Assembly: GCA_016871275.1 (NCBI GenBank)
Contig: VFZG01000022.1
Span: forward strand, 1-52,854
Source of the DNA: Acidimicrobiia bacterium
GTDB taxonomy: Bacteria > Acidobacteriota > Vicinamibacteria > Vicinamibacterales > UBA2999
Reading direction: 5' to 3'
DNA length: 52,854 bases
In this document: positions 47,551 through 51,167 of the stretch, in pieces
Numbering within the stretch: the stretch's first letter is position 1
Layout: each line of letters starts with the position of its first letter
Position numbers and translations under genes: made by a program
The notes under the pieces: generated by a model
Told to the model about the DNA's origin: nothing
What the model saw: only the letters and a program-made list of their open reading frames with translations
The model's database searches: none

Positions 47551-49071
47551 ATGTCGTCTTCGCCCCGCATTGACACCCTCGGACAACTGAAGGCCGCGAT
47601 CGCAAATGGCGAGATTCGCCGCCGGCCGGTGCGCGAGGAAGTCCGCGACAACCTGGCGGAGCGCCTGCGCCGCAAGGACACGCTGTTCCCCGGCATCATC
47701 GGCTACGACGAGACGGTGGTGCCGCAGCTCGTCAACGCGATCCTCGCCCGCCATCACTTCATCCTGCTCGGCCTGCGCGGTCAGGCGAAGACGCGCATCC
47801 TGCGCGCGCTGACGTCGCTGCTCGATGAGTGGATCCCGGCGATTCCCGACAGCGACATCAACGACGACCCGATTGCGCCGCTGTCGGCGTTCGGCCTCAA
47901 CCGGTTGAGGGCGGAAGGCGATGCCATGCCGATCCGCTGGATCCCGCGCGAAGCCCGCTATGTGGAAAAGCTCGCGACTCCCGACGTCACCATCGCCGAC
48001 ATGATCGGCGACATCGACCCGATCAAGGCCGCCAGGGGCGGGTTGCAGCTCGGCAGCGAGCTGTCGATGCACTTCGGCCTGCTGCCGCGCGCCAATCGCG
48101 GCATCTTCGCCATCAACGAGCTGCCCGATCTCGCCGGCAAGATCCAGGTCGGCCTGTTCAACATCCTCCAGGAAGGCGACGTCCAGATCAAGGGCTACCC
48201 CGTCCGCCTGCCACTGGACGTGCTGATTGCATTCACCGCCAATCCCGAGGACTACACCGCGCGCGGCAAGATCATCACGCCGTTGAAGGATCGCATCGGC
48301 GCCGAGATTCGCACGCACTACATGCAGAGCCGCGCCGACGCGTTGACGATTACCGAACAGGAAGCGTGGGTCTCGCGCGGCGGCGGCATCAGCGTGCCGC
48401 AATACGTGCGCGAGGTGGTCGAAGAGGTCGCCTTCCAGGCACGCACCGAGCGAAAGATCGACAAGCGCTCCGGCGTGAGCCAGCGCATGCCCATCAGCGT
48501 ACTGGAGACGGCGGTCTCGAACGCCGAGCGCCGCGCGTTCGCCAACGGCGAGTCGCCGGTGGTGCCGCGCGTCACGGACGTCTACGCGGCGCTGCCCTCG
48601 ATGACCGGCAAGTTCGAGCTCGAATACGAAGGCGAGCTGAAGGGCGCCGACCAGGTCGCCCGCGATCTGGTGCGGGCGGCCGTCTCGAACGTCTTCGATG
48701 GATACTTCGCCGACACCGACCTCAAGCAGGTCATCGACTGGTTCGACATGGGCGGATCGCTCAGCCTGTCCGACACCACCGACGCCGCCACGCTGGTCCG
48801 CGAAGCGTCCGCGGTGCAGGGGCTGGTCGAGGCCGCACAACGCGCCGGCGTCGACAAGAAGTCGCCGGTGCCCGCCGTGGCCGCGGCCATCGACTTCCTG
48901 CTCGAGGGCCTGTACGCACAGAAGAAGATCAGCCGGAATGAGGTGCGCGGCTACCACGGCACCGAGGCGCCGCGCCGGCCGCCGCAACAGCCGCGCAGCG
49001 CCATGCTGGCCGAAGACGAGGAGGCTCTCGTCAGCGACCAAGGCAGAAAGAAGAAAAGCTACTACAACTGA
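47551..49071 (+). CDS. ChlI/MoxR-like AAA+ ATPase
   Basis: A 506-residue AAA+ protein of the magnesium-chelatase I-subunit/MoxR clade. Walker A is GLRGQAKT (74-81), with Ala where most have Gly. Walker B reads GIFAINEL (Asn189 where Asp is usual, catalytic Glu190 kept). Sensor 1 region: [17 protein letters not shown]. Long C-terminal helical region (about 330-506) with a basic tail (GRKKKSYYN). Such ATPases work with VWA partners, here the next gene, to remodel a target. Mg chelation itself is unlikely because no other chelatase gene is near. Confidence 0.88.
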
Positions 49072-49072
49072 C

Positions 49073-49258
49073 GGATTGGGTGATTGGGCGATTCCTTGAT
49101 TCCTTGACTGTGGGGCGATTGACGATTGCCGACTCGGCGAATGATTTGGCGATCGACACCTGCCCTTCTGACCGGCTACACATCGCACAACAAATCGGCA
49201 ATCATCCATCACCCAGTCGCCCAACAATCAAGCAATCAAGCAATCGCCCAATCGTCAA
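49073..49258. repeat. Inverted GATTGGGC / GCCCAATC array spanning the ATPase-VWA gap
   Basis: The left half (49074-49140: gattgggt gattgggc gattcctt gattcctt gactg...gattgacg) and right half (49195-49258: ggcaatca tccatcac ccagtcgc ccaacaatc aagcaatc aagcaatc gcccaatc gtcaat) are opposite-strand versions of one theme. The last two bases of the right arm form the VWA start codon. Same family as 22478-22616. Confidence 0.7.
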
Positions 49259-50538
49259 TGAAGTACAAGTATTCCAAATACGTCCCCAACCTCCTCGACG
49301 AGCTCGACATGGACGAGCTGATGTCGAAGTTGTCCGATCTGCTGATGTCGAGCGGGTTCGGCAACCCGCGTGATACGGACGATGACAGCGATCGGACCAT
49401 GCAGGCGCTGCACGACGCGATTCTGGAGGCGTTGTTCAACGGCGGCGTGCTGCCTGACGATCTGCTCGAGACACTGTTCGGCGATGCGGCCGAGGGCAAC
49501 GAGCAAGAGGCCCGCAACCAGCTCGACGCACTCATCCAGCAGATCATCGAGCGGATGAAGGAGTCCGGCTTCATCACCACGCCGCCGGATCTCGAACCGG
49601 AAAAGGCGCGGCGGGCCATGGGCGGCGGGACGGCCGAGGAGAACGGCGAGCCGGGCGAGGTGAAGTTCGCGGTCACCGACAAGGCGCTCGACTTCCTGGG
49701 CTACCGGGCGTTGCGCGATCTGCTCGGCTCGGCCGGCCACAGCAGCGCGGGCCGTCACGACACGCGCGATTTGTCGACCGGCATCGAGACCAGCGGCGCG
49801 CCGAAGCCGTATGAATTCGGCGACGTGATGAACATCGATGCGACCGCCACTATTCTCAATGCGGTGTCCAGGCAGTCAGGCAGCAAGGCCTCCGGGCCTC
49901 CGGGAATCGACATCGATTACTCGGATGTGATGGTCGCGCAGGGCGAGTACCAGAGCTCGTGCGCCACGGTGCTGATGCTCGACTGCAGCCACAGCATGAT
50001 TCTCTACGGCGAGGATCGGTTTACGCCGGCCAAGCGCGTGGCGATGGCGCTGTCACACCTGATCCGCACGCAGTATCCGGGTGACACGATTCATGCGGTG
50101 TTGTTCCACGACAGCGCCGAAGAAGTGCCGCTGCGGGAACTGGGCCGGGTGCGTGTCGGCCCGTATTACACCAACACCCGCGAAGGCCTGCGCGTGGCGC
50201 GCCGCATTCTGGAGCGGCAGCGCAAGGACATGCGGCAGATCGTGATGATCACCGACGGCAAGCCGTCGGCGCTGACCCAGCCCGACGGCCGGATCTACAA
50301 GAATCCGTTCGGCCTCGACCCGATCGTGATCGGCGAAACCCTGGCGGAGGTGTCGGCCTGCGCCAAGGCCGGCATCATGATCAACACCTTCATGCTGGCG
50401 CGCGATTACGACCTGGTGGCGTTCGTCCGGCGCGTGGCGGCCATGTGCCGCGGCAAGGCCTACTTCACAACGCCGTACACGCTCGGGCAATACGTGTTGA
50501 TGGATTACATGGACAAGAAGAGCAAGACGGTTCATTGA
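49258..50538 (+). CDS. VWA-domain protein (ChlD/ViaA-like)
   Basis: 426 residues. The N-terminal half is helical and acidic (LLDELDMDELMSKLSDLLMS; DDLLETLFGDAAEG). The VWA domain (about 230-426) has a full MIDAS: DCSHS (Asp242, Ser244, Ser246), Thr in DRFTPAKR, and Asp in MITDGKPS. It is the expected partner of the ATPase encoded just before. The start ATG lies at the edge of a repeat arm, with no clear Shine-Dalgarno sequence. The stop overlaps the LON gene start (TTGA). Confidence 0.88.
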   Translation: MKYKYSKYVPNLLDELDMDELMSKLSDLLMSSGFGNPRDTDDDSDRTMQALHDAILEALFNGGVLPDDLLETLFGDAAEGNEQEARNQLDALIQQIIERMKESGFITTPPDLEPEKARRAMGGGTAEENGEPGEVKFAVTDKALDFLGYRALRDLLGSAGHSSAGRHDTRDLSTGIETSGAPKPYEFGDVMNIDATATILNAVSRQSGSKASGPPGIDIDYSDVMVAQGEYQSSCATVLMLDCSHSMILYGEDRFTPAKRVAMALSHLIRTQYPGDTIHAVLFHDSAEEVPLRELGRVRVGPYYTNTREGLRVARRILERQRKDMRQIVMITDGKPSALTQPDGRIYKNPFGLDPIVIGETLAEVSACAKAGIMINTFMLARDYDLVAFVRRVAAMCRGKAYFTTPYTLGQYVLMDYMDKKSKTVH

Positions 50539-51167
50539 CGATTCCCCTCTTCCCGCTGCCCAACGTCGTCCTGTTCCCGAACGTCTTTCTGCCGCTGCAC
50601 ATCTTCGAGCCGCGCTACCGGCAGATGACCGCCGATGCGCTGGCCGGCGATCGCATCATCGGCATGGTGATGCTCCGCGCCGGCTACCAGGCCGACTATG
50701 AGGGCGCGCCGCCGATTTACGCCACCGGCTGCTCCGGGCTGATCACCCATCACGAACAACTCGAGGACGGCCGCTACAACCTGGTGCTGCGCGGGCTGGC
50801 AAAGTTCACGGTGTCGAACGAACACACCCCGCCGCCGGGACGGCTGTACCGCTCGGCGACGATCGCGCCGCTCGAGGACAGCCTGCGCGACGGCGAGCGC
50901 GACGCGCTGCGCAAGGATCGCCGGCGGCTGCAGGACCTGCTGGTGCCAGTCCTGCAGGACCGGCTCGAGGCTGCCATGCCGGCCGCCATGCCGGATGAAG
51001 AGTTAATCAACGCGCTGGCGCAGTATCTGGAGTTCGACCCGATGGAGCGGCTGGCGCTGCTGGAGTGCCAGGGCGCGCTGGCGCGCTGCCGGTCGATGAT
51101 TGACTTGCTGGAAATGCGGCGGATGGGATCGGGCCTCGGGGATCCGGGCTCCGGGAAGATCCATTGA
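50535..51167 (+). CDS. Stand-alone LON substrate-binding domain protein
   Basis: 210 residues from a TTG overlapping the VWA stop. TIPLFPLPNVVLFPNVFLPL, HIFEPRYRQM and GCSGLITHHEQLEDGRYNLV are the signature of the N-terminal (substrate-binding) domain of Lon protease, without ATPase or protease parts. A helical C-terminus follows (about 125-195). The last residues (GSGLGDPGSGKIH) come from a GGGATCGG-type repeat arm. Tight coupling to an AAA+/VWA pair suggests an adaptor or substrate-recognition subunit. Confidence 0.87.
   Translation: MTIPLFPLPNVVLFPNVFLPLHIFEPRYRQMTADALAGDRIIGMVMLRAGYQADYEGAPPIYATGCSGLITHHEQLEDGRYNLVLRGLAKFTVSNEHTPPPGRLYRSATIAPLEDSLRDGERDALRKDRRRLQDLLVPVLQDRLEAAMPAAMPDEELINALAQYLEFDPMERLALLECQGALARCRSMIDLLEMRRMGSGLGDPGSGKIH

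Follow-up and report, generated by a model that had tools for sequence, protein, structure and literature searches.

Pairs made of a MoxR-type AAA+ ATPase and a protein with a VWA domain are widespread, and clients are known for few of them. The described pairs closest to the locus considered here are NorQ/NorD, the I and D subunits of the chelatases (BchI/ChlI and BchD; family model TIGR02442) and RavA/ViaA. Excerpts of the NorQ-NorD work describe a NorQ hexamer with one NorD, the VWA "finger" of which lies in the pore while its metal-ion-dependent adhesion site (MIDAS) contacts an acidic patch of the client (PMC9976466). Stand-alone LON domains are found in BPP1347 and in LotP, which, in the portions available of two papers, co-precipitates with GroEL and ClpX, enhances the activity of Lon and does not itself act as a chaperone (PMC8371691, PMC5404198). 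The locus in question occupies positions 47551-51167 of a stretch of 52,854 nucleotides, hereafter the window, from an Acidimicrobiia bacterium placed by GTDB in the Vicinamibacterales of the Acidobacteriota (assembly GCA_016871275.1, contig VFZG01000022.1, positions 1 to 52,854). Its open reading frames give three genes on the same strand, encoding an AAA+ ATPase, a VWA protein and a stand-alone LON domain (Table 1), and a codon-usage gene call, trained partly on these families, returned the identical three genes. The reading favoured here, to which we give an even chance of being right, is a NorQ/NorD-like two-component remodeling motor with LON as an optional recognition adaptor. AAA+/VWA pairs with an accessory gene are already known; the new parts are LON as the accessory and an ATPase family with Asn-Glu in its Walker B motif. 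The first-pass annotation of the window knew of no described system with this gene set, and no paper describing one was found in open-licence PubMed Central, where the one related match, on mitochondrial VWA8, CLPX and LONP1, describes no such set in the part seen.

The ATPase and the VWA protein are one module. In a survey of 198 genomes of the phylum (in which the order and class names Vicinamibacterales and Terriglobia were deduced from close loci and kinship labels), the two occur in exactly the same 74, without exception; 80 genomes had matched the ATPase, and six weak matches (E 2.8e-5 or worse) were set aside. Both genes lie on one contig and strand in 66 of these 74, with the ATPase upstream, at a distance of up to 1 kb in 50 genomes and of 1-5 kb in a further 14, the last two having them 13 kb and 750 kb apart; in the remaining eight, no contig was found with both on a single strand. 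Outside the Acidobacteriota, where the sample consists of four plasmid-collection records (Thermomicrobium, Tsukamurella, Nonomuraea and Nocardia), all four carry the ATPase, at 43-49% identity, and VWA follows directly downstream in the two that are annotated there, the other two being unannotated at that point. These pairs belong to the same family, as presumably does the mycobacterial pair Rv0958/Rv0959, but they differ from the window's pair in their C-terminal tails, and no LON was found within 7 kb of the ATPase in any of the four records. Relatives were also compared locus by locus, as the best 80 of 570 found (numbered L; survey genomes are numbered G). Some of these loci are incomplete at their ends, and most are named Acidobacteria or Vicinamibacterales, odd labels such as those of L042 and L065 looking like misnamed bins. 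Since L036 and G097, L048 and G027, and L051 and G187 are identical contigs (at least three such overlaps exist), the set of 80 loci cannot be treated as a sample independent of the 198 genomes.

What kind of ATPase is this? The first-pass annotation called it ChlI/MoxR-like, with a VWA partner and with unusual Walker motifs. The kinship and the partner are borne out by the chelatase, MoxR and NorD fold matches and by the shared 74 genomes; the Walker motifs proved to be a family signature, and their interpretation as a local variant was rejected. In an alignment of 133 ATPases (the window copies L003 and L004 and rows that were too short having been left out, and some loci, such as L021 and L169, being the same gene fetched twice), Lys80, Asn189, Glu190, Asn231, Arg238 and Arg248 are invariant. 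So are G74, R76, G77 and Q78 of Walker A, with Ala79 in 130 of 133 rows, and Walker B reads Asn-Glu, not Asp-Glu, throughout, including the non-phylum rows L174-L177. ChlI has Asp at the position of Asn189. Since Asn189 is also present in the Thermomicrobium, Tsukamurella, Nonomuraea and Nocardia relatives, the Asn before the catalytic Glu is, on the alignment, an old and fixed trait of the family. An ATPase family in three phyla with an invariant Asn-Glu Walker B is in itself a clean biochemical question. The conserved insert ahead of Walker B is presumably a helix-2 insert, by analogy with MoxR proteins, and by the same kind of analogy residues 230-250 are taken to hold sensor 1 and the arginine finger.

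The nearest relatives of the ATPase, in sequence as in fold, are the chelatase I subunits. Its AlphaFold2 model (mean predicted local distance difference test score, pLDDT, 83.7, falling below 50 at residues 489-502 and 504-506) comes closest among solved structures to BchI (Z 16.5, root-mean-square deviation (rmsd) 3.2, 258 residues), followed by the MoxR-like CHU_0153 (Z 15.2, rmsd 3.6, 253 residues), ChlI (Z 15.2, rmsd 4.1, 259 residues) and RavA (Z 13.2, rmsd 4.5, 275 residues). RavA/ViaA is thus a comparable gene pair with a weaker fold match than BchI, and no RavA family is among the NCBIfam matches. Could the pair then drive a metal chelatase as its I/D motor? All 41 ATPases scanned match TIGR02442, TIGR02030 and TIGR02031 (alignment A2; best E 1.1e-14), and the VWA protein matches the VWA part of TIGR02442. 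However, the window ATPase scores far below the family cut-offs (31.5 versus 779 bits for TIGR02442, 28.5 versus 467 bits for TIGR02030). A metal chelatase requires CobN/BchH (PF02514), which has no match in the window's own genome and is found in 17 of the 74 pair genomes and in 19 of the 198 overall. A chelatase motor is therefore improbable, and a known metal chelatase was rejected on the sub-cut-off scores together with the lack of a CobN/BchH match in 57 of the 74 pair genomes and in the window's own. No Pfam or NCBIfam model, in fact, exceeds its cut-off on the window ATPase, the MoxR models included (bpMoxR 12.3 versus 27 bits, AAA_3 16 versus 27 bits). Database entries for the Thermomicrobium and Tsukamurella relatives bear the name "sigma 54-interacting transcriptional regulator", and PF00158 is weakly matched by the window ATPase (E 0.0011) and, at E 0.001 or better, by 23 of 41 relatives. 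A sigma-54-type transcription regulator is nevertheless hardly credible: the PF00158 match is below cut-off, no DNA-binding domain is among the Pfam matches of the window ATPase, a VWA gene is present in all 74 ATPase genomes, and the fold is nearest to chelatase and MoxR proteins.

The VWA protein has the complete MIDAS that had been noted at first, and its residues D242, S244, S246, T305, T307 and D333 are each present in all 111 aligned rows, an alignment likewise made without the window's copies and rows of insufficient length, and in which some loci may stand for one gene fetched twice. Its AlphaFold2 model is of moderate quality (mean pLDDT 73.0). The best Foldseek match is NorD in the NorQ-NorD complex (E 1.9e-8); in a ranking by structure only, many VWA domains tie at Z about 18-20, so that NorD does not stand out by fold alone, and its absence from the 50 entries listed there is uninformative. 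The structure searches were made with single chains, and the N-terminal half of the protein is barely covered. In sequence, NorD matches the window protein weakly (E 0.38). What the locus shares with NorQ/NorD, as far as the excerpts of PMC9976466 go, is the arrangement of separate AAA+ and VWA proteins, the latter with a MIDAS; it differs in that the NorQ/NorD client cNOR is not implicated, in having NE rather than DE in Walker B, and in its LON neighbor.

Both proteins of the pair end in conserved tails, ...KKKYYN in the ATPase and ...KT(K/R)T(I/V)H in the VWA protein (window 50515-50535). The VWA tail has His as its last residue in 80 of 89 distinct sequences; these counts and the corresponding ATPase count in Table 1 cover distinct sequences from loci L034 onward (98 ATPase, 89 VWA). 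The tails are present also where LON is lacking and were not seen in the non-phylum relatives. They are perhaps docking tails of the pair.

The third protein is a stand-alone LON domain without protease, as first annotated. The 210 residues match PF02190 almost from end to end (101.7 versus a cut-off of 28.7 bits, profile positions 1-199 of 200), and no ATPase or protease domain was found by Pfam, the only other match being below cut-off (11.2 versus 27 bits). The nearest solved chains are mostly those of Lon proteases, plus the stand-alone BPP1347. In consisting of a single LON domain the protein resembles BPP1347 and LotP; unlike here, the portions of the papers seen mention no AAA+/VWA operon, and they give GroEL, Hsp40, ClpX, DnaJ and Lon as partners of LotP. 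How closely is LON tied to the pair? The three genes had been described as translationally linked. This holds for VWA and LON, the stop and start of which overlap by 4 bp as reported; an alternative, earlier in-frame GTG start for LON lies at 50445. It does not hold for the ATPase and VWA, between which lie 186 bp predicted to form a single long hairpin (-79.8 kcal/mol, z -6.76, none of 200 shuffles being as low); translational coupling is thus conceivable for VWA and LON only. Among the best 80 of 570 relatives' loci, LON lies just downstream of VWA in 37. Measured to the LON start nearest the domain, the spacing there is a 1-bp stop-start overlap (TGATG) in five, 0-40 nt in 17, 41-130 nt in nine and larger in six; the start thus overlaps the VWA stop or lies within 40 nt of it in 22 of 37, and the window's exact TTGA overlap is not repeated in any of the 37. 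In terms of genomes, and counting here and below among the LON matches listed, LON follows VWA in 14 of the 18 genomes that carry the pair in the window's order, which is more than chance.

A second arrangement is found in nine other loci of the same 80, where a LON gene in the same orientation immediately precedes the ATPase, with 56-247 bp between the end of the LON open reading frame and the ATPase match (one of these loci, L090, being partial). The titles of eight of them name Terriglobia, Acidobacteriaceae, Acidipila, Acidobacteriales or Acidiferrales, and that of the ninth, L101, only Acidobacteria; genomes G076 and G127 also have LON directly before the ATPase. These upstream LONs are 24-30% identical to the window's. 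In a tree of LON domains (built without partial copies and without L025, which repeats L155), the downstream and upstream sets fall into separate, well-supported clades, with unlinked LONs and Lon-protease domains between them. That LON is linked in two orders and in two arrangements, with two LON clades, supports the adaptor reading. Among the unlinked copies, L134, L135, L136 and L117 are nested in a linked LON clade; they are second copies in G027, G071 and G194 and the only copy found in G128, a placement that suggests duplication and relocation, or transfer.

Is LON then a partner of the pair? Or is it an independent proteostasis factor that, like LotP, acts on GroEL or on Lon protease and is no more than an operon or neighborhood companion of the pair? 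A number of observations weigh against a partnership. Both linked LON clades contain some unlinked members, and a single clade for the two linked sets, at a cost of 30.1 in log-likelihood, is not rejected at 0.05 (approximately unbiased test, p 0.062); with two supported clades and this 30-unit cost, two separate associations are still probably a better reading than common ancestry, though not a proven one. Among the 74 pair genomes LON is linked in 16, not linked in 35 and lacking in 23, the last figure being an upper bound; in some of the unlinked cases (for instance, G136, G152 and G168) LON is on a short contig, where linkage cannot be judged. Fifty genomes have a stand-alone LON and no pair. 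In one family of the window's order, f2, all four genomes have the pair but no LON beside it: G013 has a stand-alone LON on another contig, and G123, G139 and G163 have none, their two LON matches each being all in protease-size frames. Genome G131 is a natural test of the independence of LON. Here, about 0.1 kb separates GDPD from LON, which lie back to back (L114; G131:C23, 5888-7380) where the relatives hold the ATPase and VWA, and neither of the latter is matched anywhere else in the genome, which is 98% complete. GDPD, on the opposite strand, is itself almost as conserved a neighbor (26 of 56 loci with enough flank, versus 29 of 56 for LON), and part of the LON linkage is thus ordinary synteny; LON is kept without a detected GDPD in six loci, and GDPD without LON in three. 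Finally, the Asn-Glu Walker B might mean slow hydrolysis, or none.

Most of these observations would suit an independent LON, which survives the loss of the pair in G131 and is dispensed with by the pair in f2. Elsewhere in the window's genome, LON matches occur in two more frames, of 832 and 861 aa; these are presumably Lon proteases, on which such a factor could act. LotP itself points both ways: as a stand-alone LON that contacts proteostasis machines (it binds GroEL and boosts Lon in the excerpts of PMC8371691 and PMC5404198), it feeds the adaptor reading and its rival alike. Against independence speak the two arrangements in which LON is linked, each with its own clade, and the tight VWA-LON spacing in 22 of 37 loci. 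An independent LON is a real possibility, on the doubtful side. Stand-alone LON is commoner in genomes with the pair (51 of 74) than in those without (50 of 124; Fisher p 1.2e-4, uncorrected for kinship). The partnership of LON and the pair in soil Acidobacteria is recurrent and lineage-specific; it is looser than that of the ATPase with VWA and not obligatory. The neighborhood survey proposed in the first-pass annotation, which had named a LON gene unlinked in most relatives as speaking against its idea, thus divides the claim: an obligatory three-part system is refuted phylum-wide by the linkage in only 16 of 74 genomes, whereas the ATPase-VWA co-occurrence and the association of LON within the order stand.

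How would a motor with a LON adaptor work? From the analogies one may infer a ring, docking, client remodeling, physical contact of LON with the pair, and the selection of clients by LON that had been proposed at the outset. The ATPase would probably form a hexameric ring, on which the VWA protein would dock, transmitting the movement driven by ATP to a client bound at the MIDAS metal, as in NorQ/NorD. The LON fold takes part in substrate recognition in Lon protease. Here, LON may recognize exposed or unfolded segments and bring such clients to the ring without degradation. It is also conceivable, if rather unlikely, that two distant LON clades joined the Asn-Glu AAA+/VWA motor in separate events, one on either side of the operon, giving a protease-free, "Lon-like" machine that would recognize exposed segments and remodel its clients instead of degrading them. 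If LON acts with the pair, the Lon recognition domain would here be functioning with no protease attached, and a recognizer encoded beside the motor would make the finding of clients directly testable.

A pair with a third gene also recalls the MoxR-vWA ternary conflict systems, which are described in parts of PMC7159879, and the locus could be read as a defense system with LON as the third component. There, as far as the parts seen go, the third component is VMAP, iSTAND, FtsH or a beta-propeller, not LON, and "Lon" is absent as a whole word from PMC7159879. The bpMoxR model fails on the window ATPase, as noted above, none of the three proteins has a PADLOC match at E 1 or better, and the chromosomal neighbors are those common to loci of the order. 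The ATPase is unmatched in phage records. Among the PHROGs, neither it nor the VWA protein has a match, and LON has a single weak one (E 3.1e-4). Defense is very improbable, and was rejected on the lack of PADLOC matches for the three proteins and of phage-record matches for the ATPase, the common chromosomal context and the other third components in the excerpts of PMC7159879.

Table 1. Features of the ATPase-VWA-LON locus, in window coordinates.
Feature	Position	Strand	Remarks
ChlI/MoxR-like AAA+ ATPase ("MOX")	47551..49071	+	506 aa; weak chelatase matches TIGR02442/TIGR02031/TIGR02030
Walker A GLRGQAKT, residues 74-81	47770..47793	+	alignment of 133 rows
Conserved insert before Walker B, residues 136-161	47956..48033	+	many invariant columns
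Walker-B-like FAINE, residues 186-190 (FAINEL, 186-191)	48106..48120	+	Asn189 replaces the usual Asp; Glu190 retained
Sensor 1/arginine-finger region (by analogy), residues 230-250	48238..48300	+	N231, R238, R248 invariant
ATPase C-terminal tail KKKSYYN	49048..49068	+	Asn last in 90/98 distinct complete genes
Long intergenic hairpin, ATPase-VWA	49074..49253	+	40-nt arms, 88% complementary
VWA protein, helical N-terminal half and C-terminal VWA domain	49258..50538	+	426 aa; VWA_2 E 4.5e-8
MIDAS motif DCSHS, residues 242-246	49981..49995	+	completed by T305/T307 (50170-50178) and D333 (50254-50256)
VWA stop/LON start overlap TTGA, 4 bp	50535..50538	+	from the sequence
Stand-alone LON substrate-binding domain	50535..51167	+	210 aa, TTG start; PF02190 E 6.4e-29

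Scans for promoters and terminators yielded no signal exceeding that of shuffled sequence. With 2 exact copies in the window's own genome, the intergenic pattern CAATCGCCCAATC does not qualify as a repeat spread over the genome. Hairpins in the ATPase-VWA gap recur in relatives (window 49069-49257; L048:9498-9716; L045:9525-9809; L054:9507-9646; L044:9507-9596), at z from -5.8 to -14.1. Across 14 relatives' loci, gaps folding at z < -5 number 10 of 49 between co-directional genes, two of eight between convergent and none of 24 between divergent ones (one strand, 40 shuffles).

In the Terriglobia loci L105, L109, L111 and L154, LON-ATPase-VWA is immediately preceded, in the same direction, by a small TPR gene of about 105 aa, one representative of which matches PF14559/PF14561. 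Relatives that lack LON have this gene ahead of the ATPase, making 14 loci in all, of which L030 and L157 are the same gene. Genes for a pyruvate dehydrogenase-like complex lie on the minus strand at 34649-40242, 7-13 kb upstream of the locus, in a block that is common to the relatives (clusters c6, c8 and c9); E2 and E3 were assigned by Pfam on the relatives' copies, and E1 is a guess from length and position only. At the contig end, 52097-52852 holds a low-complexity, Gly/Gln-rich frame with short tandem-like repeats, beside a gap that folds at z -7.8.

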